From NCBI RefSeq assembly GCF_907163105.1, contig NZ_OU015321.1:806001-870000 (forward strand): a stretch of 64,000 nucleotides of DNA. The letters are read 5' to 3'. Origin of the DNA: Cloacibacterium caeni. Its GTDB lineage: Bacteria > Bacteroidota > Bacteroidia > Flavobacteriales > Weeksellaceae. The position numbers and the translations under genes are program-made. A model generated the notes under the pieces. The model saw only the letters and a list, made by a program, of their open reading frames with translations, made no database searches and was not told the origin of the DNA. Of this stretch, positions 5,401 to 49,772 are shown in pieces. Numbering within the stretch: the first letter of the stretch is position 1; every line of letters starts with the position of its first letter.

Positions 5401-7392
5401 ATGAAACTAAAACATACAATTATCGCTCTAGCAGCACCTTTCCTTATGAAAGCACAACAGGTAATGACGCCAGAAATTCTCTGGACGCTTAATAAATTCT
5501 CGGTTACCGCAGTAGAACCGTCTCAATCTGGGCTATTTTACAGCGTAGGAAAAGTAGATTTGAAAACCGAAAAGACTAATAAAGAACACTTTTACTACGA
5601 TTTGTCAAAAAATCAAACTTCTAAAGTTGATTTTGGTAAAAAATCTTTAATTCAGTGGGACAAAAACGGAATTTACGCTTCAGAAGGCGATAAAATCTAC
5701 ATTTCTAAAGACAGAGGATTGACTTGGACTGAATTTTATACCATTGGCGATGCAGACAATATTATCATATCTCCTGATGGTAAAAAAATCGCTTTTAGTA
5801 AGTCGGTTCACGTAGAAAAATTGTTGGGAAAAGAGAAATATTCTGACCTTCCTAAAACGACAGCTCAAATTTATACAGACCTTAACCATAGACATTGGGA
5901 TGCTTGGAATGAAGGAAAATATAATCACGTTTTCGTTGCCAATGTTGGCGAAGATGTTGCTAAAGCTAAAGATTTATTAGAAAATTTACCTTTTGATGCT
6001 CCTCAAAAACCTCATGGCGGAAGCGAAGATTTCGTGTGGAGTCCAGATTCTTCTAAAGTTTTATACGTTTGTAAGAAAAAATCGGGCAAAGATTATGCAA
6101 CCAGCACCAATACAGATATTTACGCTTATGATTTAGCTTCTGGTAAAACCGAAAACTGGACAGAAGGAATGATGGGTTATGATGTAAACCCTAAGTTTTC
6201 GCCAGATGGAAAATCTTTGCTTTGGCAATCTATGGCGAGAGATGGTTACGAGGCAGACAAAAATGACATTGTAGTGATGGATTTGGCTTCTAAAAAAATC
6301 ACAAATCTTACTAAATCTTGGGACGAAAGTATAGTGGGAGATGTAGCATGGAGTCCAGATTCTAAAAATATTTATTTTTCTACTGCTTACAGAGGTGTAA
6401 AACAGCTTTTCCACATCGGTTTAGATGGGAAAGTGAAGCAAATTTCTGGTGGTAATTTTGATGTGAATGAAATTATTGCCTTCCAAAGCGGAAATATTTT
6501 GGTAACCAGAACAGATATTAATCATAATGCAGATTTATTTAAAGTTAATGTAAAAGACGGAAGTATGTTGCAGTTAACTTCTGTAAATGAAAGTACTTAC
6601 GCTAAATTATCTCAAGGAAAATCTGAACTGAAAATGGTGAAAACTTCAGATGGTAAAGAAATGGGAGTTTGGTTCCATTATCCACCGAATTTTGACCCAA
6701 ATAAGAAATATCCTACACTTTTATATTGTCAAGGAGGTCCGCAATCTGCTTTAACTCAATTTTTCTCTACTCGTTGGAATTTCGCTTTGATGGCTGCAAA
6801 TGATTACATCGTAGTTGCGCCAAATAGAAGAGGAATGCCAGGTTGGGGAACCAAATGGAACGAAGATATTTCTAAAGATTGGGGAGGACAACCAATCAGA
6901 GATTATTTAGCAGCGGCAGATTTTGCCAAAACTTTACCTTATGTAGATGGTGATAGAATGGGAGCAGTTGGTGCAAGTTATGGTGGTTACAGCGTTTTCA
7001 TGTTGGCTGGAGTTCACGAAAATAGATTCAAAACGTTCATTGCTCATGACGGATTGTTTGATATGAAATCTTGGTACGGAACGACCGAAGAGTTGTGGTT
7101 TGCCAATTGGGATTTAGGTTCGCCTTGGGAAAAACCTTTACCAAAAGCGTATACCGATTTTAACCCAATCAATTTTGTTGACCAATGGAATAAGCCAATT
7201 ATGGTGATTCAAGGAGGATTGGATTTCAGAGTAGGGTATGAACAAGGTCAGGAAGCTTTTCAAGCAGCAAAAATGAAAGGTTTGAAAACTAAATTCCTTT
7301 ATTTTCCTAACGAAAACCACTGGGTTTTACATCCTCAAAACGGTCTAGTTTGGCAAAGAGAATTCTTCGATTGGTTGAAAGAAACTTTGTAG
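5401..7392 (+). CDS. S9 family prolyl oligopeptidase/acylaminoacyl-peptidase-like
   Basis: A 663-residue exported serine peptidase. A short hydrophobic N-terminus ending in KAQQ is a probable signal peptide. Residues about 25-400 form a beta-propeller with repeated SPDG/SPDSK strands. The C-terminal alpha/beta-hydrolase domain (PF00326) carries the nucleophile in GASYGGYS, the acid in GGLDFRVGYEQ and the histidine in NENHWVLHP, so the triad is complete. Members of this family cut oligopeptides after proline or release blocked N-terminal residues in the periplasm of asaccharolytic Bacteroidota. A TAAATTTA sequence at 5362 may be the -7 element (one mismatch). It ends at a shared terminator. 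Confidence 0.88.
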   Translation: MKLKHTIIALAAPFLMKAQQVMTPEILWTLNKFSVTAVEPSQSGLFYSVGKVDLKTEKTNKEHFYYDLSKNQTSKVDFGKKSLIQWDKNGIYASEGDKIYISKDRGLTWTEFYTIGDADNIIISPDGKKIAFSKSVHVEKLLGKEKYSDLPKTTAQIYTDLNHRHWDAWNEGKYNHVFVANVGEDVAKAKDLLENLPFDAPQKPHGGSEDFVWSPDSSKVLYVCKKKSGKDYATSTNTDIYAYDLASGKTENWTEGMMGYDVNPKFSPDGKSLLWQSMARDGYEADKNDIVVMDLASKKITNLTKSWDESIVGDVAWSPDSKNIYFSTAYRGVKQLFHIGLDGKVKQISGGNFDVNEIIAFQSGNILVTRTDINHNADLFKVNVKDGSMLQLTSVNESTYAKLSQGKSELKMVKTSDGKEMGVWFHYPPNFDPNKKYPTLLYCQGGPQSALTQFFSTRWNFALMAANDYIVVAPNRRGMPGWGTKWNEDISKDWGGQPIRDYLAAADFAKTLPYVDGDRMGAVGASYGGYSVFMLAGVHENRFKTFIAHDGLFDMKSWYGTTEELWFANWDLGSPWEKPLPKAYTDFNPINFVDQWNKPIMVIQGGLDFRVGYEQGQEAFQAAKMKGLKTKFLYFPNENHWVLHPQNGLVWQREFFDWLKETL

Positions 7393-7402
7393 AAAATTAT
7401 AT

Positions 7403-7430
7403 AAAAAGTTCAGTTAATCTGAACTTTTTT
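7403..7430. terminator. Bidirectional terminator with a stop codon in the loop
   Basis: AAAGTTCAG, loop TTAAT, CTGAACTTT, flanked by A and T runs on the two sides. The TAA stop of the minus-strand gene lies in the loop (7414-7416). Confidence 0.85.
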
Positions 7431-7641
7431 CATTTTCATTCAACTCGTCATATTTGGTTTTTAATCTAAATTCATCTTCGAAAAAATTTTCATAAAAATT
7501 TTCATTGCCTTTAATGTATGAGCATTCATATTCATCATCATTTGAATGTGAGATAATTGTTAGTTCTTGTCCTTCATGTAAACCTTGAGCATAAGTTGTA
7601 AGAATAACTTTTTGCCCTGAAAAATAATTTGGTCTTTTCAT
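7414..7641 (-). CDS. Small hypothetical protein
   Basis: A 75-residue soluble acidic protein starting MKRPNYFSGQKVILTTYAQG, without signal peptide or membrane segment. I do not recognise a family; the GQKV...GLHEGQELTI pattern suggests a small beta-barrel. A minus-strand TATATTTG (7670-7663) lies 22 bp before the start and is a likely -7 element. The gene sits convergently to the S9 peptidase and divergently from the DNA glycosylase, whose promoter overlaps its first codons. Confidence 0.6.
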   Translation of the reverse strand: MKRPNYFSGQKVILTTYAQGLHEGQELTIISHSNDDEYECSYIKGNENFYENFFEDEFRLKTKYDELNENEKSSD

Positions 7642-7660
7642 ATTTTGTTATTTAAATTTG
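7629..7660 (+). promoter_or_regulatory. Probable promoter of the DNA glycosylase gene
   Basis: TTG at 7629-7631, 21-bp spacer, TAAATTTG at 7653-7660. The -33 part overlaps the first codons of the divergent small gene, and the minus-strand -7 of that gene lies only 2 bp downstream (7663-7670), so the two divergent promoters almost touch. Confidence 0.55.
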
Positions 7661-7703
7661 AACAAATATAATATATAACTTAGAAAAAAACTTTTTGCTT
7701 AAA

Positions 7704-8192
7704 ATGAAGATATCCTCATTTCCTCCAATCATTGATAACGAATCAAAGATTCTGATTTTAGGCTCTATTCCAGGGATTAAATCTTTGGAAATGAAGCAAT
7801 ATTACGCACATCCTCAAAATAAATTTTGGAAAATTATTTGTGAATTGTTTCATGAAGAATTAACAACAGATTATGCCGAAAGAATTAAAATTTTAGAAAA
7901 ATACCACGTTGCACTTTGGGATGTGATAGACACTTGCGAAAGAAAAGGAAGTTTAGATTCAGAAATCCGAAATGAAGAGGCGAATAAAATAGGAGAGTTG
8001 CTACACAATTATCCGAACATAAAAGCTATTTTCTGCAACGGACAAAAATCCTATAAAAATTTGCAAAAAATTCTACCGAAAGATTTTCATCTGCCAATTA
8101 TTGTTTTACCATCTACAAGTCCTGCTCATGCAAGTTTGAGGTATGAAGAAAAATTATTATCTTGGCAAAAAATTAAAAACTATTTACCATGA
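7704..8192 (+). CDS. DNA-deoxyinosine/uracil-DNA glycosylase family protein (HDG-like)
   Basis: A 162-residue protein of the UDG superfamily, closest to the hypoxanthine (deoxyinosine) DNA glycosylases. The N-terminal motif LGSIPGIKSLEMKQYYAHP and NKFW, together with the C-terminal motif LPSTSPAH, are those expected for the active site and the DNA-intercalating loop. The enzyme would remove deaminated adenine from DNA and start base excision repair. I use the ATG at 7704; a TTG nine bases upstream gives an in-frame extension with no support. The stop codon overlaps the next start by 4 bp (ATGA). Confidence 0.8.
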   Translation: MKISSFPPIIDNESKILILGSIPGIKSLEMKQYYAHPQNKFWKIICELFHEELTTDYAERIKILEKYHVALWDVIDTCERKGSLDSEIRNEEANKIGELLHNYPNIKAIFCNGQKSYKNLQKILPKDFHLPIIVLPSTSPAHASLRYEEKLLSWQKIKNYLP

Positions 8193-8821
8193 AAAAACTA
8201 TTTATTTCTTTCGTTTTACTATTTTCTTTATTTGTTTTTTCTCAAGAGTATCAATTTGATAAAAAATGTGTTAGTAATTCCACTAGAATTAGTCCAAAAA
8301 TTGGAAATAAAAATTCATGGAAAAGTTATATTTATTTTAATTCTAGCAACAATAATTATTATATGAATCAAAGAAATGATGATTCTTATTACTATATAAC
8401 GGATAATTCTTTAAAAGAGGTTATTGCTTTACAACGTATAAACAGTGAAAAACCATATTATTCTTATTTAGATAAGAAAACTTTTGATTACACTTATAGT
8501 GAAAAAGAAATTGGAAAAATAATAATCAAAGAATTAGCAGAAGATGAGTTCCTAGTTCAATGTTTTGTAAATGATGATTCTAAAAAAACAAATTTAGAAG
8601 TGAAATTTAAGTTATATAAATCAAAAACTCCAATGATTGAAATTAGGTTTATGGATTTAGGTCAAATTATTCATAAAAAAATATACGATTCTTTAAAGGA
8701 AAGATTAAATGGAAATAATTTTTGGATTTTATATGCTGAAGTAGATTACAAAAATGGATATAAATTTCTATTTGAGTTTGATGACTGTGAAGAAATAGCT
8801 CTTAATCTGAAATTTAACTAG
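8189..8821 (+). CDS. Exported hypothetical protein
   Basis: A 210-residue protein with a clear signal peptide (MKKLFISFVLLFSLFVFSQ, cleavage expected after FSQ). The mature part is rich in Y, N, K and D and probably beta-stranded; no family is recognised. It overlaps the upstream glycosylase gene by ATGA, which suggests translational coupling although the two proteins work in different compartments. No terminator is visible before the queA promoter. Confidence 0.65.
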   Translation: MKKLFISFVLLFSLFVFSQEYQFDKKCVSNSTRISPKIGNKNSWKSYIYFNSSNNNYYMNQRNDDSYYYITDNSLKEVIALQRINSEKPYYSYLDKKTFDYTYSEKEIGKIIIKELAEDEFLVQCFVNDDSKKTNLEVKFKLYKSKTPMIEIRFMDLGQIIHKKIYDSLKERLNGNNFWILYAEVDYKNGYKFLFEFDDCEEIALNLKFN

Positions 8822-12239: not shown

Positions 12240-13217
12240 GTGTCAAACATCGTAGAAGAAATCAAGAAGCCGATTAACGAAGAAATGAAACTTTTTGAAC
12301 AAAAGTTTTATGAATCAATGCAAAGCAGAGTTCCTTTGCTTGATAAAGTTACTCGTTTTATTGTAACCACCAAAGGAAAGCAAATGCGACCAATGTTTGT
12401 ATTTCTTACCGCTCAATTGGTAGGAAATGTAAACGAAAAGACGTTTCGAGGCGCTTCTATGATTGAGTTGATTCACACCGCTACTTTGGTTCATGATGAC
12501 GTAGTAGACGAAAGTTTTAAACGTCGTAATTTCTTTTCTATCAATGCTTTATGGAAAAATAAAATTGCAGTTTTAGTAGGTGATTATTTGCTTTCTAAGT
12601 CAGTTTTACTTTCTACTGATAATAAAGATTTTGATTTATTGGCTGTTATTTCTAGAACCATCAGAGAAATGTCTGAAGGAGAGTTGCTTCAGTTAGAAAA
12701 AGCTAGAAAATTAGACATTACAGAAGACGTTTACTACGAAATTATTCGTCAAAAAACGGCTACACTTATTGCTGCTTGTTGCGAAGTAGGCGTTTTGTCT
12801 AATGGTGCTGATGAAGTTTTAGCCAAAAAAATGCAGGATTTCGGTACTTATACGGGAATGGCGTTCCAAATCAAAGACGATTTGTTTGATTATCTTTCTA
12901 AAAATATAATTGGAAAACCAGTTGGGATTGACATAAAAGAGCAAAAGATGACTTTGCCACTTATTCATACTTTAAAAACGGCGAATGAAGCTGATAGAAA
13001 GTACTACTTCAATACTATTAAGAGATATAATAACGACCAAAAACGCGTAAAAGAGCTGATAGAATTTGTGAAAAAATCTGGAGGATTGGATTATGCAATT
13101 GGAGTGATGAAAGATTTTCAGCAAAAAGCAAAAGATATCCTTGCAGAATTCCCTGATTCTGAAGCGAAACATTCTCTTAATTTGATGCTTGATTACGTTA
13201 TAGAGAGGAAGTTTTAA
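12240..13217 (+). CDS. Trans-polyprenyl diphosphate synthase
   Basis: A 325-residue all-helical prenyl synthase that chains isopentenyl diphosphate units onto an allylic primer, supplying the menaquinone side chain. KGKQMRP (about 46-52), the first aspartate-rich motif HDDVVDE (85-91) and the second, FQIKDDLFDY, are present. I choose the GTG at 12240, because the alternative TTG at 12195 lies inside a -7-like TATATTTG (12190-12197) and would precede the transcription start. Its 3' end overlaps the convergent AraC-type gene by 20 bp. Confidence 0.85.
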   Translation: MSNIVEEIKKPINEEMKLFEQKFYESMQSRVPLLDKVTRFIVTTKGKQMRPMFVFLTAQLVGNVNEKTFRGASMIELIHTATLVHDDVVDESFKRRNFFSINALWKNKIAVLVGDYLLSKSVLLSTDNKDFDLLAVISRTIREMSEGELLQLEKARKLDITEDVYYEIIRQKTATLIAACCEVGVLSNGADEVLAKKMQDFGTYTGMAFQIKDDLFDYLSKNIIGKPVGIDIKEQKMTLPLIHTLKTANEADRKYYFNTIKRYNNDQKRVKELIEFVKKSGGLDYAIGVMKDFQQKAKDILAEFPDSEAKHSLNLMLDYVIERKF

Positions 13218-14916
13218 TATTTTCCTTCATCATTTTAATGAAATACGAAGGTTTAATCTCAAATTTTCTCTGGAAGTTATCCGAAAATGCTTCTGCATTC
13301 GTAAATCCTGCAATATTTGCTAATTCTTTGATGTCTCTATTTAAGTATTTATGTTCTGTTTTGAGCAATTCCACAATATATTCTAATCTTAAGTCATTGA
13401 GATAATTACTAAAATTTTTCTCTTTATAAACATTAATAATTTTAGATAGATAAGTTGGGTTGGTTCCCAGTTTTTCACTGAGTAATTTTTGAGTGATTTT
13501 ATAATCCAGAAATTGTTGTTCCTTTTCGAAAATTTCTAGCTGTTCTAGTATGTATGTAATGGTTGATTCACTAAGTCCCGTGATTTTTGGAATTACAGTT
13601 TTATTCTCTTCAACAATTGTAACTGGGATTTTCTCTATTTCTGTATTTTTTGATATGATTTGTTCAAAACGCTCTTTATATTTCCTTTGCATTTGGAAAT
13701 ATTTATAAGTAGAAAAAGAAATAATCAGTATACTTAATATAATTATGAAAAGCGTGAGGTATTGATGAATTTTTAAGCTATTTTCAATACTGTTTTTCTC
13801 GTCAATCAATTTTTTTGTATCATATTCTTTATGAATTTTGGCAAAAAGATATTTGTAGTTCTTTTCGTAGGATTTATCTAGAGACATTAATTTATTAATG
13901 TATTCGAGTTGCTTATCTGTGTTATTTTTAGAAGCGTAATATTCTATAAGTAATTCATAGGCAGGTCTGAACTGAGGATCTTGATTTTTGTCTTTGTGAT
14001 ATTCTTTGTCTAATTTTTCGAAATATTTTACAGCTTCTTTTTTATTTCTTAATTTCCAATAAGACATTCCTATGTAGAAAATTTCTGTATAGTGAGGCCA
14101 ATTGTCTTGGTATAAATGCTGTGCTTTTTTAAGTTTATTAATTGCTACAGAATAGTTTTTAAGATAATAAGCATCAGTTCCTTCGCAAGAAATAAAATAT
14201 GGTATTAAATATTTTGCATTGTTTTTATTTATGAATTCATATGCTTCTTTAAGTAAAGTTATATTTTCTGAATTTTTTTTAAGTTTTGTATTACAATCAA
14301 TTAAACTCATAAGAGAATAGCTGTAGTATATTTCATAATCATCTCCTAGTTCATTGATTTCATTACTTCTGAAAAAATTAACACATTCTACTAAATCCTT
14401 TTTTGCTTCATTATACTGTCCTAATATTATTCTATTTTGGGCAATATAATATAGAGTCTTATGATTGATGTAATCATTTTTTACATTATTTAAGTATTCT
14501 TTTGCCTTTAAAATAAAATTTAATGCGGGCTCATATTGAAAATGATCCATAAGAAAAACACCTTTATTGAGTAAAGCATCAGAAATAAGTTCGTTATTCT
14601 TAGTTTTTTTAGCAACTATTATTGCACTATCTACATATTTACTTGCTAAATTATATTTATTTGCTTTGCTAGAATATCTGTAAGCATAAAATAAGGCTTG
14701 AAGATTATTTTCTTTTTTGGATTTTTTAATATAATATTTAATTAATGGCAAAGCATTTTGGTTAGAAGAATTTAAACTATCAATTTTATGTTCTAATTCT
14801 AAAAAAGATAAATCTTCTAATTTTTTTTCTTGAGCGTTTACTGAGATTTGGAAAAAAAACAGAACTGTAAGAAATAAGTTTTTGATTATTAGATAGTTAT
14901 TGGTTTTTGTTTTCAC
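13198..14916 (-). CDS. Membrane TPR-AraC regulator, paralogue A
   Basis: A 572-residue protein in four parts: signal peptide or anchor (to about residue 29, ending VNAQ), a TPR-like helical region (about 30-375), one transmembrane helix (about 386-404), and a cytosolic AraC-type DNA-binding domain at the C-terminus (about 470-570). The HTH helices are seen in LSEKLGTNPTYLSKIINVY and LANIAGFTNAEAFSDNFQRK. This layout predicts a one-component sensor: periplasmic TPR sensing a ligand or protein, HTH acting on DNA. It is about 90% alike to paralogue B over the last 200 residues, including a stretch of about 118 identical bases, whereas the TPR part has diverged. Its 3' end overlaps the prenyl synthase gene by 20 bp. 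Confidence 0.82.
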   Translation of the reverse strand: MKTKTNNYLIIKNLFLTVLFFFQISVNAQEKKLEDLSFLELEHKIDSLNSSNQNALPLIKYYIKKSKKENNLQALFYAYRYSSKANKYNLASKYVDSAIIVAKKTKNNELISDALLNKGVFLMDHFQYEPALNFILKAKEYLNNVKNDYINHKTLYYIAQNRIILGQYNEAKKDLVECVNFFRSNEINELGDDYEIYYSYSLMSLIDCNTKLKKNSENITLLKEAYEFINKNNAKYLIPYFISCEGTDAYYLKNYSVAINKLKKAQHLYQDNWPHYTEIFYIGMSYWKLRNKKEAVKYFEKLDKEYHKDKNQDPQFRPAYELLIEYYASKNNTDKQLEYINKLMSLDKSYEKNYKYLFAKIHKEYDTKKLIDEKNSIENSLKIHQYLTLFIIILSILIISFSTYKYFQMQRKYKERFEQIISKNTEIEKIPVTIVEENKTVIPKITGLSESTITYILEQLEIFEKEQQFLDYKITQKLLSEKLGTNPTYLSKIINVYKEKNFSNYLNDLRLEYIVELLKTEHKYLNRDIKELANIAGFTNAEAFSDNFQRKFEIKPSYFIKMMKENIKTSSL

Positions 14917-14929
14917 TTTTCACTTTTCT

Positions 14930-15109
14930 ACAATGATAAAACAAAAAATTGGAATAAGAAATATGATATTTTTTCAAAAAATCCCGGTTGATTTTTATGA
15001 ATTCCGAGTTCAGTTTTTAGTAAGGAAATAATGAAAAGAGTAGTTTTGTTTCATCTTAAAACACAATAAAAAGAGGTAAGATTTAATGACCAAAAAAAAC
15101 ATTACTATT
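14930..15109. repeat. 180-bp duplicated intergenic block, copy 1
   Basis: By eye this block is identical base for base to 16912-17091. It holds the region upstream of regulator A on the minus strand (with TATCATTG, one mismatch to a -7 element, near 14930) and, on the plus strand, TAGTTTTG at 15041-15048, a perfect -7 match without a clear -33. The first codons of a short open frame lie at its right end. Confidence 0.85.
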
Positions 15110-15167
15110 CCGAATAGTAAAGTATTTCTTCAAGGGGACTTCAACATGAAAATGTTGAAGTTTTTTT
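15055..15167 (+). ncRNA. Candidate small RNA or short leader ORF, unit A
   Basis: Inferred from a plus-strand -7 element (15041-15048) and a strong intrinsic terminator (15138-15167) with nothing else between. A 36-codon frame starts at the ATG at 15086 (MTKKNITIPNSKVFLQ) but its second half runs through the terminator hairpin, so it may be a leader peptide or not translated. Start position is approximate. The same unit recurs upstream of regulator B. Confidence 0.4.
15138..15167 (+). terminator. Intrinsic terminator of the candidate small RNA, unit A
   Basis: ACTTCAACAT, tetraloop GAAA, ATGTTGAAGT, then a T run. It points along the plus strand, opposite to both flanking regulator genes. Confidence 0.8.
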
Positions 15168-15179
15168 ATTTAGATGTTT

Positions 15180-16898
15180 TTAAGAATGTGTTTTAATATT
15201 TTCCTTCATCATTTTAATGAAGTACGAAGGTTTAATTTCAAATTTTCTTTGGAAATTATCAGAAAATGCTTCTGCATTTGTAAATCCTGCAATATTTGCC
15301 AATTCTTTAATTTCTTTTTCTAAAAATTGATGCTCTGTTTTGAGTAATTCTACAATATATTCTAACCTTAAATCATTGAGGTAATTACTGAAATTTTTCC
15401 CTTTATAAGCATTAATAATTTTGGAAAGATAAGTAGGATTGGTTCCCAATTTTTCACTGAGTAATTTTTGAGTGATTTTAGAATCCAGAAATTGTTGTTC
15501 TTTTTCGAAAATATCTAGCTGTTCTAGAATATATGCAACAGTGGATTCACTAAGTCCAGCGATTTTAGGAGTTATTGTTTTACTTTTTTCAACAATAGTA
15601 ACTGGGATTTTCTCAATTTCTGTATTTTTTGAAATGATTTGCTCAAAACGTTCTTTATATTTCCTTTGCATTTGGAAATATTTATATGTAGAAAACGAAA
15701 TCAAAACAATGCTGATAATGATTACAAAAAGTGTGAGGTATTGATGAATTTTTAAGCTGTTTTCAATACTATTTTTCTCGTCAATAAGCTTCTGAGAATC
15801 ATATTCTTTATGAATTTTGGCAAAAAGATATTTGTAGTTCTTTTCGTAGGATTTATCTAGAGACATTAATTTATTAATGTATTCGAGTTGCTTATCTGTG
15901 TTATTTTTAGAAGCGTAGTATTCTATAAGTAATTCATAGGCAGGTCTATATTGAGGATTTTTATTTACTCCTATATAATATTCTTTGTCTAATTTCTCGA
16001 AATATTTTACAGCTTCTTTTTTGTTTCCTAATTTCCAATAAGACAAGCCTATGTAGAAAATTTCTGTGTAGTGTTGCCATTGGTCATTATAAGAATCTAA
16101 AGATTTTTGTAAATATTTAATTGCTGAAAGAAAGTTATTATTATAATATGCTTCAGTTCCCAATGATGAAACAAAATAAGGATAATATTCTTTTAAATTT
16201 TTCTTTTTAATGTAATTGAAAGCTTCATTTAATAGAGAAACGTTTTCTTTGTGATTTTTAATTTTGCTATTTGAGTCAATTAATGACAAAAGAGAATACA
16301 TATAGAATAATTCATTATCAACCCCCAATTTATTTTCTTTTAGATTTGATCTAAAGTATTTTACACAAGACTTTAATTCTTTATTAGCTTCTGAATTTAA
16401 GCCTAAATAAATTTTATTTTGAGCAATAAAATATTTTGACTTATTAATCAAATAATAATCTCCAATTTTAGATGCTACATTATGTGCCTGAATAATATAT
16501 TTTAAAGCTTCCTTATGCATAAAATTATCCATAAGTGTGTAGGATCTATTAATTAATGACTCTGTAATTAGTTTTTTATTTTTATTTTTTTGAGCTATAA
16601 ATAGTATACTATCTGAATATTTTAAATTTTCAGGAAATACAGAGTAACCACTTGCATATCTATAAGCGTAAATTAATGCTTCATCATTTTTTTCTTCTTT
16701 AGATTTTTTTATATAATGATTTATATATATCCACAATTCTTCCTTTCTGTTATAAGAACTATCAATTTTTTTTTCTAATTCTAAAAAAGATAAATCTTCT
16801 AATTTTTTTCCTTGAGCATTTAACTGAATGTGGAACAAAAATAAAAGTGCTATTGTTAAATGTTTGATAATTAGGTGTTTATGTTTATAGATTTCCAA
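15180..16898 (-). CDS. Membrane TPR-AraC regulator, paralogue B
   Basis: A 572-residue paralogue of A with the same plan: N-terminal hydrophobic export signal ending LNAQ, TPR-like region, one transmembrane helix (HQYLTLFVIIISIVLISFST) and a C-terminal AraC HTH domain. The last 260 residues are almost the same as in A, while the sensor half is only about half identical. The pattern suggests recent duplication or gene conversion of the output half and diversification of the sensing half. The short intergenic stretches on both sides carry the duplicated blocks. Confidence 0.82.
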   Translation of the reverse strand: MEIYKHKHLIIKHLTIALLFLFHIQLNAQGKKLEDLSFLELEKKIDSSYNRKEELWIYINHYIKKSKEEKNDEALIYAYRYASGYSVFPENLKYSDSILFIAQKNKNKKLITESLINRSYTLMDNFMHKEALKYIIQAHNVASKIGDYYLINKSKYFIAQNKIYLGLNSEANKELKSCVKYFRSNLKENKLGVDNELFYMYSLLSLIDSNSKIKNHKENVSLLNEAFNYIKKKNLKEYYPYFVSSLGTEAYYNNNFLSAIKYLQKSLDSYNDQWQHYTEIFYIGLSYWKLGNKKEAVKYFEKLDKEYYIGVNKNPQYRPAYELLIEYYASKNNTDKQLEYINKLMSLDKSYEKNYKYLFAKIHKEYDSQKLIDEKNSIENSLKIHQYLTLFVIIISIVLISFSTYKYFQMQRKYKERFEQIISKNTEIEKIPVTIVEKSKTITPKIAGLSESTVAYILEQLDIFEKEQQFLDSKITQKLLSEKLGTNPTYLSKIINAYKGKNFSNYLNDLRLEYIVELLKTEHQFLEKEIKELANIAGFTNAEAFSDNFQRKFEIKPSYFIKMMKENIKTHS

Positions 16899-16911
16899 TT
16901 TTAGTTTTTTT

Positions 16912-17091
16912 ACAATGATAAAACAAAAAATTGGAATAAGAAATATGATATTTTTTCAAAAAATCCCGGTTGATTTTTATGAATTCCGAGTTCAGTTTTT
17001 AGTAAGGAAATAATGAAAAGAGTAGTTTTGTTTCATCTTAAAACACAATAAAAAGAGGTAAGATTTAATGACCAAAAAAAACATTACTATT
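16912..17091. repeat. 180-bp duplicated intergenic block, copy 2
   Basis: Identical to 14930-15109 as far as can be read. The plus-strand TAGTTTTG is at 17022-17029. Confidence 0.85.
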
Positions 17092-17150
17092 AAGAATAGT
17101 AAAGTTCTTCTTCAAAGGGAGCTTCAACATGAAAATGTTGAAGTTTTTTT
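17036..17150 (+). ncRNA. Candidate small RNA or short leader ORF, unit B
   Basis: Second copy of the unit at 15055-15167. Its frame from the ATG at 17068 begins MTKKNITIKNSKVLLQ but one extra base before the hairpin shifts it relative to unit A, which argues against strong selection on a peptide C-terminus. The hairpin itself is conserved. Confidence 0.4.
17122..17150 (+). terminator. Intrinsic terminator of the candidate small RNA, unit B
   Basis: CTTCAACAT, GAAA, ATGTTGAAG, then a T run; same hairpin as at 15138-15167. Confidence 0.8.
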
Positions 17151-17163
17151 ATTTAGATGTTTT

Positions 17164-18927
17164 TTAAGAATGAGTTTTAATATTTTCCTTCATCATCTTA
17201 ATAAAGTAAGAAGGTTTAATCTCAAATTTTCGTTGGAAATTATCAGAAAAATTCTGTGTATTAGTGAATCCAGATAGTAATGCTAATTCTTTGACATCCA
17301 TATTAAGATATTTTGCATCAATTTTCATTAGGCTAATTAAATATTCAAGTCTTAAATCATTGATATAAATACTCACATTTTTGCCTTTATATACATTTAT
17401 TATTCTTGACAAGTAGGTAGAATTAGTATTTAAAATTTCACTTAATAATCCTTTAGAGACTTGATTATCTAGGAATTTATTTCCTTTTTCAAAATCATCT
17501 AGTTTATTTAAAATATTTTCTACAATTAAAGGATTTAGACCAGGTATTTTATTATAATATTCTAAATCAATAGAATTTTTAGGTTTAGGAAAATTAATAT
17601 TTAGTTCACTATTGCTAAATACTTCTTCTGCTATATCTACTTCATTTACTTTCTCTTCTGGTTCTTTATTTTTATTTGGAATTTCTGAAATAATTTTTTC
17701 AAATTTTTCTTTATATATTTTTTGTAAGGAATTGTATCTATTCCAAAAAAATAATGTAGCTAAAATAGCAAAAAGTAAAATAGTACTTATTATTGTTCTT
17801 TGTGTTTTTAAAGAGTTTTCAATTTTATTTTTTTCAATAATGAGTTTTTTGGTGTCGTATTCTTTATTAATTTTAGAAAATAGATATTTGTAATTTTTTT
17901 CGTAATTTCTATCAAGAGCCATTAATTTATTGATATATTCCAATTGTTTATCTCTATTACCAATGGAGTCATTATACTTAATTAATAATTCATAAGCAGG
18001 TCTGAATTGTGGATCTAATTTTTTAGTTTCATTATAATCTTTATCAATTTCTTCAAAATATTTAACTGCTACATCAGTTTTTCCTAATTTCCAATTAGAC
18101 ATTCCTAGATAAAAAACTTCTACAAAATGTGGCCAATAATCATTGTAAAGGCGTAATGATTGACTAAGTTTTGTTATGGCTAAATTATAATTTCCTAAAT
18201 AATAAGCGTCTGTACCTTCAGATGAAATGAAATATGGAATATAATTTTCTAATTTATTTTTATTTAGATAATTAATGATTTCTTTTATTAGTGTTGTGTT
18301 TTCAATTTGTTTTCCAATTCTTGTATTGGTATCTATGTAACTCATCATAGAATATATATAGAATTGTTGGTAATCTTTTCCATACTGGGAATTATTTAAG
18401 TTTTCTTTAAAATAATTCATACATGAACTTAATTCTACATTTGCTTCTTCATACAGGCCAAGATAAATTTTATTTTGGGCCATATAGTATTTTGTTTTAT
18501 TATTAAAATATTCATCATCAATTTTTAATGAATATTGATTGGCTATCAAAATATCATCTAATGCTTTTTGATGTTTTGATTCATCCATATATATAATGCC
18601 TCTATTAAGATAAGCTATTGTTAGGAGTTTAGCATTTTGTGATTTTTTTGCAACATTTAATGCACTATCTGCATATTTAAAGTTTTTGGGATGTTTCGCA
18701 TAAACACTTGCAATTTTATAAGCATTAAGTAGCCCCTCTTCATTCTTGTTTTTTTTTGTTTCATCTATGTAGTGATAGATAAGCTTCCACATTTTTGGGG
18801 GATTATTACTAATTGATGTAATTTTAACTTCTATTTTGTCATAATTTTTAGTCAATTGCGCATTTAATAGTATAGTAAATGCTAAACTAAAACTAAAGCT
18901 AAAAATATATTTTAAATAAAAGCTCAT
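17164..18927 (-). CDS. Membrane TPR-AraC regulator, paralogue C
   Basis: A 587-residue, more distant paralogue of A and B. Signal sequence ending LLNAQ, TPR-like region, one transmembrane helix (ISTILLFAILATLFFWN), a longer acidic linker, and an AraC HTH domain that ends with the same EIKPSYFIKMMKENIKT tail. It is first in the tandem array and divergent from the small lipoprotein gene at 19102; the 174 bp between them hold the lipoprotein promoter. It could regulate that gene, but no operator can be named. Confidence 0.8.
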   Translation of the reverse strand: MSFYLKYIFSFSFSLAFTILLNAQLTKNYDKIEVKITSISNNPPKMWKLIYHYIDETKKNKNEEGLLNAYKIASVYAKHPKNFKYADSALNVAKKSQNAKLLTIAYLNRGIIYMDESKHQKALDDILIANQYSLKIDDEYFNNKTKYYMAQNKIYLGLYEEANVELSSCMNYFKENLNNSQYGKDYQQFYIYSMMSYIDTNTRIGKQIENTTLIKEIINYLNKNKLENYIPYFISSEGTDAYYLGNYNLAITKLSQSLRLYNDYWPHFVEVFYLGMSNWKLGKTDVAVKYFEEIDKDYNETKKLDPQFRPAYELLIKYNDSIGNRDKQLEYINKLMALDRNYEKNYKYLFSKINKEYDTKKLIIEKNKIENSLKTQRTIISTILLFAILATLFFWNRYNSLQKIYKEKFEKIISEIPNKNKEPEEKVNEVDIAEEVFSNSELNINFPKPKNSIDLEYYNKIPGLNPLIVENILNKLDDFEKGNKFLDNQVSKGLLSEILNTNSTYLSRIINVYKGKNVSIYINDLRLEYLISLMKIDAKYLNMDVKELALLSGFTNTQNFSDNFQRKFEIKPSYFIKMMKENIKTHS

Positions 18928-19056
18928 TGCTTATTTATAAAAGGAAAATTAGACGTTATGAAAAAAATATTTACAATAATACATCAATTTTTTTTAAATC
19001 ACTAACAAAAATTTTTGTTTTTACATTGATTTTTTTTGAATTGAAGGTTCTAAAAT

Positions 19057-19088
19057 TTGACTTTAGGCATAATGTTGATATACATTTG
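19057..19088 (+). promoter_or_regulatory. Strong promoter of the small lipoprotein gene
   Basis: TTG at 19057-19059, 21-bp spacer, TACATTTG at 19081-19088. The ATG is at 19102, so the 5' untranslated leader would be only a few bases. An in-frame TTG at 19057 is the -33 element itself and not a start. Confidence 0.8.
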
Positions 19089-19101
19089 TCAAAAAAAAAT
19101 C

Positions 19102-19359
19102 ATGAAGAAAATTTTAGTATCTACCGTATGTTTCTTAGTTGTATTAATCTCATGTAGACAGCAAGAAGATGTTTCACTTTCTCAAGAAGATTTAGCTAAC
19201 ATTAAGCTGATTCAAAAAAATAGAAATTATAGAAAGGCTAATAATATTACAAATATTAAAACTGATACAGTTTATAGAACTCAAACATTAGATATGGGTA
19301 CAGTAGAGTTAGATGTAATATCTGAGGTAGATCCTAATAAACCACCAAAACAACAATAA
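19102..19359 (+). CDS. Small lipoprotein, member 1 of a local peptide family
   Basis: 85 residues, MKKILVSTVCFLVVLISC with a lipobox ending at Cys18, so a lipid-anchored protein is predicted. After the anchor come a helix with LSQEDLANIKLIQKNRNYRK and a proline-rich tail. The LS..D.....IQ..R..R pattern is shared with the protein encoded at 19561. I do not recognise a named family. It faces the regulator C gene and has a perfect promoter and a terminator of its own. It may be a target, partner or ligand precursor of the TPR regulators; this is inference from arrangement. Confidence 0.7.
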   Translation: MKKILVSTVCFLVVLISCRQQEDVSLSQEDLANIKLIQKNRNYRKANNITNIKTDTVYRTQTLDMGTVELDVISEVDPNKPPKQQ

Positions 19360-19406
19360 ATCTAATAAAAAAGTAAAATAAATTTTTTTTTCATCGTTTG
19401 TGTTTT

Positions 19407-19447
19407 CTCCTTTCGCTGTTTGTTCTCAGAGCAGCGAAGGAGATTTT
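19407..19447 (+). terminator. Terminator hairpin of small lipoprotein 1
   Basis: CTCCTTTCGCTG pairs with CAGCGAAGGAG (one bulged T) across a 12-nt loop, followed by ATTTTT. Together with about 45 bp before it, this region is nearly the same as 19799-19886. Confidence 0.75.
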
Positions 19448-19560
19448 TAAAAGAAAATTTTAAAATACAATTTAAAGGAATATCTAAGATGTACTTTGTT
19501 AAATTCATAACCATATTTTAATCTTAGAAATTTAAAATATTAATTTAAAAATTTACTGTT

Positions 19561-19782
19561 ATGAAAAAATTTACACCAATATTGTTAGCATTGGCTTCAA
19601 TCGCAGTATTATCATTTAAACAATCAAATAGTTCAGAAAAATCTGATGCTGCTTTAAGCAAAAATGATATTGAGATTTTAGAAATTATACAAAATAAAAG
19701 AAAATTAAGAAATAGTAATGAGAATAAAACTAATATAGTTTTACATAATGAAGAGGAGGCATTAAGATTTCTGAATAAATAA
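19561..19782 (+). CDS. Small exported protein, member 2 of a local peptide family
   Basis: 73 residues with a hydrophobic N-terminus (MKKFTPILLALASIAVLSF). The position of the lipobox cysteine is Phe19 here, so it looks secreted or periplasmic rather than lipidated. The helix LSKNDIEILEIIQNKRKLRN matches LSQEDLANIKLIQKNRNYRK of member 1. The 200 bp upstream hold the terminator of member 1 and then nothing clear; TACTTTG near 19491 is an imperfect -7. No known family recognised. Confidence 0.65.
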   Translation: MKKFTPILLALASIAVLSFKQSNSSEKSDAALSKNDIEILEIIQNKRKLRNSNENKTNIVLHNEEEALRFLNK

Positions 19783-19844
19783 AGTGCAGCTAGAAATAAA
19801 TCTAATAAAAGTAAAATAAAATTTTTTTTCATCGTTTGTGTTTT

Positions 19845-19886
19845 CTCCTTTCGCTGCTTGTTCTCAGAGCAGCGGAGGAGATTTTT
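19845..19886 (+). terminator. Terminator hairpin of small exported protein 2
   Basis: CTCCTTTCGCTG with CAGCGGAGGAG, then ATTTTT. The only stem change relative to the first copy is A to G, which keeps pairing as G-U. Confidence 0.75.
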
Positions 19887-19937
19887 AAAGAACATCATCA
19901 CAATTATTCATACATTCATATTAATTAAGTTAAGCTC

Positions 19938-22490: not shown

Positions 22491-22727
22491 ATGAAAATTT
22501 TATTTTTTATCATAGCAGCTTTTACTCTTTCGAGTTGTGCTGTGGCAAAAATCCAAGATTGCCCAGAAGAAAAAATCATCAATAAGATGCCAAAAGTGAT
22601 TGCTGGTAACTCAGAAACACCTAATGAATATTATATTTACAAAGGACAAAGAAGAGAAATCAAGGAATTTGATACCACTTGGATAGAGAAAAACTGCCCG
22701 AATATAAAAGTACAAGAAGTTTATTAA
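22491..22727 (+). CDS. Small lipoprotein, unknown function
   Basis: 78 residues with signal peptide and lipobox LSSC (Cys16). The short mature part has three further cysteines and a central YYIYKGQRREIKEFDTTWIE. It starts 3 bp after the E1 stop, so it is co-transcribed with E1, and ends at a terminator. No family is recognised. Confidence 0.65.
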   Translation: MKILFFIIAAFTLSSCAVAKIQDCPEEKIINKMPKVIAGNSETPNEYYIYKGQRREIKEFDTTWIEKNCPNIKVQEVY

Positions 22728-49612: not shown

Positions 49613-49737
49613 ATCAGTTTTTTATGAAGTAGAGTAGGTGATGAGTATCATAAATTTTGTAAGAGAGTATTAAAAATAACAATCTTTGCATAAATATTTA
49701 AGGACTATATTTTACTAAATACAGAAAACACAAATGA

Positions 49738-49772
49738 TGAAAAAACCAGCTAATTTTTAGCTGGTTTTTTTA
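49738..49772. terminator. Bidirectional terminator
   Basis: AAAAAACCAGCTAA, short loop, TTAGCTGGTTTTTTT between the convergent TPR regulator and nucleoside phosphorylase genes. Confidence 0.85.

Follow-up and report, generated by a model that had tools for sequence, protein, structure and literature searches.

A hypervariable small lipoprotein and a membrane-spanning AraC-type regulator as a putative ligand–receptor cassette in Cloacibacterium caeni and its relatives

In the 64-kb stretch of Cloacibacterium caeni DNA analyzed here (the window), two genes for small exported proteins, m1 and m2, lie beside a gene for an AraC-type regulator that is predicted to span the membrane. Judged by sequence, m1 is a member of a family of tiny lipoproteins that are encoded next to such regulators and seem not to have been described; a literature search that covered few subscription journals and preprints returned no description of this Bacteroidota pair. 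On balance, we favor the reading that m1 and the regulator form a cognate lipoprotein-ligand/transmembrane-receptor cassette with a pherotype-like signal. The features on which the argument draws are as follows.

13198..14916, minus strand: the second of two tandem regulator paralogues
14200..19360: hypervariable block, with best matches in four sister genomes at mostly 65–80% identity apart from conserved islands (flanks mostly 93–98%)
15180..16898, minus strand: tandem paralogue of the regulator, without an adjoining small gene
17164..18927, minus strand: the adjacent regulator, 587 aa; Pfam HTH_18 and TPR; AlphaFold2 model with pLDDT 88.1
18928..19101: divergent intergenic region common to the regulator and m1
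18962-18999/19004-19041, within that region: direct repeat, 71% identity, 42-bp spacing, possible operator
19081..19088, plus strand: TACATTTG upstream of m1
19102..19359, plus strand: m1, 85-aa small lipoprotein with lipobox LISC; no Pfam/NCBIfam match above cut-off
19369..19451, plus strand: 3′ repeat copy 1 (predicted m1 terminator); hairpin 19406-19443, then U5
19561..19782, plus strand: m2, 73-aa exported paralogue under purifying selection, Phe replacing the lipobox Cys, PP tail absent
19807..19889, plus strand: 3′ repeat copy 2 (predicted m2 terminator); hairpin 19844-19881, then U5

Both small exported ORFs had been recognized in an earlier note on this DNA, and both were found. In m1, acidic positions follow the lipobox Cys (CRQQED), the helix is LSQEDLANIKLIQKNRNYR and the C-terminal tail reads ..DPNKPPKQQ. 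The anchor difference described in the earlier note, LISC in m1 against VLSF in m2, can be read from the codons (TCA TGT AGA, SCR, against TCA TTT AAA, SFK), and the helix motif that it considered common to the two proteins is indeed present in each (LS..D...L..IQ..R..R). Whole-protein identity between m2 and the m1 alleles is merely 22–32%, and the PP(K/R) C-terminal tail is present in every m1 allele and absent from m2. No Pfam or NCBIfam family scored above its curated cut-off for m1, m2 or eight relatives; weak matches of m1 and m2 to Phr_nterm, FAM176, BSAP5b and other families were far under the cut-offs, lay mainly in the signal peptide region and were set aside.

The adjacent regulator consists of a signal peptide, a TPR solenoid (about residues 43–352), a long helix containing a TM segment (359–414) and an AraC-type HTH domain (452–587), a layout from which we infer a periplasmic TPR and a cytoplasmic HTH. 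When its AlphaFold2 model, built on a 44-row alignment, was compared with solved structures, the leading rows were LGN and APPBP2, and the best-ranked bacterial entries were NprR and Rap (Z 20–22.6), in a list from which the absence of a family is uninformative. LGN and APPBP2 are TPR proteins that bind linear peptides, and NprR and Rap are pheromone receptors. RapJ (4gyo) was also reached by a sequence profile (E 3.6e-4). TPR folds are common, and the fold match of the model indicates no particular function.

In all seven genomes of the genus, m1 lies divergently next to a regulator gene encoding this signal peptide–TPR–TM–AraC layout. The regulator genes form a tandem array of varying length (two to three in the genomes read), sited between a gene that, by its sequence, is polyprenyl synthetase-like and a pair that is presumably pdhAB. 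In the window, the three tandem regulator genes (13198-18927), which are the only such regulators in this genome, have near-identical C-termini and mosaic N-halves; together with the different array lengths among sister genomes, this suggests recombination between paralogues. In G003, an 830-aa regulator ORF (L050, 3241-5733, minus strand) matches the profile in two separate pieces, as if two regulator genes had been fused or partly duplicated. Another small conserved lipoprotein (78 aa; 22491-22727), whose gene separates pdhAB from the dihydrolipoamide dehydrogenase gene in the window, has an ordinary dS and matched no Pfam or NCBIfam family above cut-off.

We scanned the regulator alignment against 84,980 genomes, which yielded 80 named loci; 76 of them could be evaluated, the upstream sequence being too short at L118, L160, L173 and L178. 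At 51 of the 76, the regulator is flanked by a small, divergently oriented ORF that carries the tail motif (49 found by regular expression, after a spurious case at L148 had been dropped, and L156 and L166 by eye), at some 34–285 bp by called start in the 49 regular-expression loci. A lipobox was recognized in 48 of the 49 motif ORFs and in m1, and not in m2 or in the ORF of L116. The lipoproteins are 63–122 aa long, with mature forms of about 45–95 residues, and share a general plan: an acidic N-terminus, a variable middle that cannot be aligned, and a conserved tail, PPP[KR][KR] or DPP.K.G..W. In each of the 48 mature N-termini, two or more acidic residues lie between +2 and +7, in a count that did not require the exact consensus of the lipoprotein export signal (LES), and 46 of 48 have a basic residue at +2. 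Such N-termini resemble those of the Bacteroidota LES surface lipoproteins, in which acidic residues follow the +1 Cys and the signal is minimally K-(D/E)2 or Q-A-(D/E)2 in C. canimorsus, or else a polar-acidic run; Sus-like uptake proteins are among the known examples, as are enzymes, the mucinase MucG for one (PMC5080379). The lipoproteins described here differ from those in being tiny and regulator-linked, and in having the basic residue at +2, not mainly at +3 as in that account (PMC5080379).

The tails fall into two classes. Class A (DGEIVPPPKK, EGDPIPPPKR, DKPPR and similar) is mostly linked to pdhAB; class B comprises DPPVKNGTHWK, DPPPKNGHQW, DPDPPVRDGTRW and similar tails. The tail motif is repeated in tandem in several lipoproteins, three times in L152 and twice in L128, L135, L139, L147, L153 and L164. 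In three groups, tail identity exceeded middle identity in every pair compared (55/55, 15/15 and 21/21; 0.87–0.90 against 0.34–0.57), and in a fourth group, of close relatives, in 4 of 6 pairs. When the labels A, B and none were placed on the 77-row regulator tree, six changes sufficed, against a mean of 36.4 after shuffling, and none of 200 shuffles was as low. Tail subtypes also follow regulator subclades across genera, L163 of Chryseobacterium grouping with L177 of Pedobacter, and systems with differing tails may coexist in a single genome (Epilithonimonas hungarica L151, L167 and L168; Chryseobacterium sp. ERMR1:04 L127 and L163). This clustering is a sign of stable pairing and not of binding, because physical linkage alone also clusters labels.

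The pairing also held in the reciprocal direction. Profile A5, built from 20 class-B lipoproteins chosen by regulator adjacency, gave 50 matches in 60 family genomes; all 24 matches at E≤3e-6 adjoined a divergent regulator, as did 4 of the 26 weaker ones, in a test that is partly dependent because some of the 60 genomes contain the lipoproteins used for A5. A first profile, A1 (178 of 296 genomes at E≤0.01), matched many unrelated lipoproteins by the signal peptide alone and was not used for counts.

Several loci depart from, or add to, the basic arrangement. A Chryseobacterium regulator clade (L132, L134, L136, L141, L144, L148, L150 and L159), encoded downstream of, and co-directionally with, an outer-membrane efflux-like gene, lacks a lipoprotein partner despite its nested position among regulators that have one. 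In four Flavobacteriaceae loci (L123, L131, L137 and L169), a divergent lipoprotein of 205–219 aa, with no Pfam family, replaces the small one and is perhaps another partner class. G002, G006 and G003 hold a second, class-B-like lipoprotein–regulator system (L182, L183 and L184, respectively) with tails ..DPPVKDRQDW.. or ..DEPKRDKQHW... At L149, L163, L177, L190 and L192, the class-B lipoprotein gene is followed in the same direction by a gene for a four-helix membrane protein, which resembles MauE/DoxX, and some of these loci encode an additional small exported protein; both are candidate regulated genes.

Within Cloacibacterium, m1 is hypervariable and m2 lies outside that diversity. Between the window and G001, G002, G005 and G006, dS was 0.75–1.11 for m1 (0.49–0.79 in most other pairs), 0.28–0.34 for m2 and 0.17–0.30 for pdhAB; over five genomes, pdhAB gave 0.12–0.34 and the polyprenyl synthetase gene 0.13–0.23. 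Over the first 200 codons of the adjacent regulator gene, dS exceeded 1.2 in all pairs except G001/G005. In that pair, m1 is identical and the regulator N-half has a dS of 0.01, against 0.20 for pdhAB, 0.41 for the TPR C-half and 0.45 for the HTH. The near-identical block (G001 6967-8599; 1,633 bp with 3 differences, where the background is 4.0%) spans m1, the intergenic region and 229 N-terminal codons of the regulator; beyond it, into m2, differences are still fewer than background. On this sequence evidence, m1 and the regulator N-half moved jointly, as one block, between two Cloacibacterium species. G001 and G002, in turn, have the N-half of the second regulator in common (98–100%), but not that of the first. 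Taken together, these two cases indicate that the sensory halves move as modules, the first with its lipoprotein. A raised lipoprotein dS is no general rule: it was seen in none of four close pairs outside Cloacibacterium (0.32 v 0.43, 0.12 v 0.17, 0.78 v 0.73 and 0.60 v 0.75), three of which showed a raised dS for the regulator N-half.

The region between m1 and the regulator was inspected for control elements. TACATTTG matches the TAnnTTTG −7 element of Bacteroidota promoters and lies 21–22 bp before the start codon in four of seven m1 genes; TAnnTTTG was not found within 120 bp upstream of m2. AraC-type proteins often bind direct repeats. Two copies of TATRAAAYRACR, spaced 21 bp from each other, precede m1 in five of the seven genus genomes; G004 has one copy there, and the window none. 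Across 53 intergenic regions, close relatives included, spacings of 21, 22 and 42 bp were mildly prominent among the 31 tested. These observations hint weakly at an operator in the common promoter region.

In the reading that we favor, each lipoprotein of the m1 family would be a surface-type protein whose gene diverges from that of a membrane-spanning transcription factor, and the periplasmic TPR solenoid of this factor would act as the sensor. The lipoprotein's conserved proline/basic tail, or a fragment released from the lipoprotein, would bind the TPR superhelix at its N-terminal half and thereby alter the action of the AraC-type domain on direct repeats in the common promoter region, so that the lipoprotein would serve as an autoregulated self-recognition or cell-density signal. 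Divergent alleles would be maintained and swapped between species as a block of TPR N-half, promoter and lipoprotein, as for pherotypes. Against a ligand–receptor relationship, linked genes co-segregate on a tree even without mutual binding, a surface lipoprotein would need to be released or returned to reach a periplasmic TPR, and 25 of the 76 evaluable regulators have no such lipoprotein.

The best surviving alternative, which we nevertheless hold to be unlikely, is that the lipoprotein serves the regulator permanently as a structural or sensory subunit responding to something else, as ToxS does ToxR or VtrC does VtrA, and not as a diffusible or cell–cell signal. Co-component systems (ToxR/S, TcpP/H, VtrA/C and PsaE/F) likewise join a membrane-tethered HTH transcription factor with an adjacent, fast-evolving exported partner, a pattern (PMC9214523) that our pair matches, and the joint transfer of m1 with the TPR N-half would suit an obligate complex equally well. 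However, the partners covered there are folded, mostly with a lipocalin-like domain, the HTH is N-terminal and the genes are co-directional (PMC9214523), whereas here we find a short lipoprotein with a linear tail, a C-terminal HTH and a divergent gene order, at odds with the same-direction downstream gene by which co-components are found. A mature protein of this size, with an unalignable middle and a short conserved tail, would seem to leave no room for a folded sensor domain; tandem tail repeats would be odd for a fixed 1:1 partner, and the acidic, export-type N-termini point to the surface.

It is likewise unlikely that the lipoprotein gene is simply a target gene, with a regulator that senses an envelope condition and a product with an unrelated surface role, its diversity reflecting phage or immune selection and the linked receptor half hitch-hiking. 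Divergent regulator–target pairs are commonplace, and both the regulators without a lipoprotein and the ordinary lipoprotein dS outside Cloacibacterium fit such a relationship. By contrast, it does not account for the agreement between tail classes and regulator subclades across genera, for different tail classes in paralogous systems of one genome, for a tail that is conserved where the middle is not, for an identical block that spans exactly the sensory N-half and excludes the HTH, or for family matches confined to regulator neighborhoods.

The history of m2 bears on how the locus arose. The near-identical 3′ regions with a terminator reported in the earlier note extend over 83 nt at 96% identity; by chance, 0.00 occurrences of the core 23-mer, as many as 3 mismatches being allowed, are expected in the 64-kb window. 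The full element occurs at only two sites in the 2.72-Mb genome, the remaining matches being 15–38 nt long, and at two to three per sister genome, at this locus, which disposes of a mobile or genome-wide repeat. With hairpins of −21.4 kcal/mol (z −4.5) and −23.3 kcal/mol (z −4.3), each followed by a U run, both copies are predicted to be intrinsic terminators. Pairing is preserved between the two stems, as had been noted, but they differ at two positions (U/C in the 5′ arm and A/G in the 3′ arm) and not at one. Among 13 terminator copies from sister genomes, a compensatory change from CTCC/GGAG to CTCT/AGAG indicates that the stem is under pairing constraint. An extra terminator copy, with no gene before it, lies ~130 bp past that of m1 in L046, L047 and L048 (G001, G002 and G005). 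A T-run with CATCNTTTGTGTTTT is a flank common to several terminator-like sites in the genus, standing beside unrelated hairpins at 49721-49743 (minus strand) of the window and in L003, L004 and L024.

m2 is present in five of the seven genus genomes, at 86–95% identity to the window copy, and its residue 19 is Phe in all five; the earlier note had proposed that a Cys at this position in relatives would mark a recent mutation, and none was found. Since dN/dS was 0.09–0.24 in all 10 pairs from five genomes, m2 is a real protein-coding gene under purifying selection, and neither a pseudogene nor a recent mutant. The complete locus of G003 has a single lipoprotein and one diverged terminator followed by pdhAB, without m2; in G004 the contig ends within the locus. 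At the same place in a second genus, L098 encodes one lipidated protein plus two with Phe, the latter retaining a ..TPPRD tail. In Halpernia humi (L116; L193 is from this genome too), two almost identical copies stand in tandem, with Ile at the lipobox Cys site. These cases indicate that loss of lipidation recurs. The shared terminators and the invariant Phe support the proposal that a duplication was followed by loss of the lipidation Cys. As a full account of the pair, a split into anchored and free forms falls short because m2 has also lost the tail and because m1 and m2 evolve very differently. That the two genes are recent lipoprotein duplicates, one anchored and one free, with no special system behind them, is very unlikely, since the duplication with common terminators and the Cys-to-Phe change are real but leave the regulator pairing (24/24 family matches), the hypervariable block with its G001/G005 transfer and the tail loss of m2 unexplained. 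In the cassette that we favor, m2 would derive from m1 by tandem duplication together with the terminator, then loss of lipid anchor and tail; now a stable exported protein, this non-lipidated, tail-less duplicate is perhaps a modulator of the pair, or may act otherwise.

In its working, the cassette may resemble both co-component systems and the RRNPP systems of Firmicutes (Rap-Phr, NprR-NprX, PlcR-PapR and Rgg-SHP). As in the latter, a gene for a small exported precursor lies beside that of a TPR-solenoid regulator, the functional unit would be at the precursor C-terminus, and each system has private variants. In RRNPP systems, the mature peptide has 4–10 residues and is bound after re-import into the cell. 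Unlike the cytosolic RRNPP receptors, the receptor here has a signal peptide, a predicted N-terminal periplasmic TPR, a TM helix and a C-terminal AraC HTH; the precursor is a lipoprotein and the host belongs to the Bacteroidota. Because its receptor is predicted to span the membrane, the cassette is not an RRNPP member. The loci comC/comD, agr and comQXPA are pherotype loci of Gram-positives that use histidine kinases; in these, too, the signal and the sensory half of the receptor are hypervariable and swapped jointly within conserved flanks. The RRNPP_detector survey covered Firmicutes genomes only (PMC10075063).

More tentatively, and with considerable doubt, Bacteroidota may possess a peptide-signaling superfamily of their own, in which surface lipoprotein pheromones with C-terminal PP..(K/R/W) tails would be recognized in the periplasm by one-component receptors of the TPR–TM–AraC type through several private channels per genome, hypervariable pherotypes would be swapped as cassettes, and m2 and other non-lipidated paralogues would be soluble agonists or decoys. 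If m1 and the regulator are indeed signal and receptor, they would represent a genetically encoded recognition system for Bacteroidota that combines RRNPP and co-component features in a new architecture. Nature would already supply dozens of variants of it, along with a specificity code in the match of tail to TPR half, and short synthetic peptides would allow direct tests in harmless environmental species. Genes annotated as hypothetical lipoproteins would become predicted ligands with likely receptors named, and m2, together with the variants of the second genus, would be a natural experiment on the contribution of lipidation.
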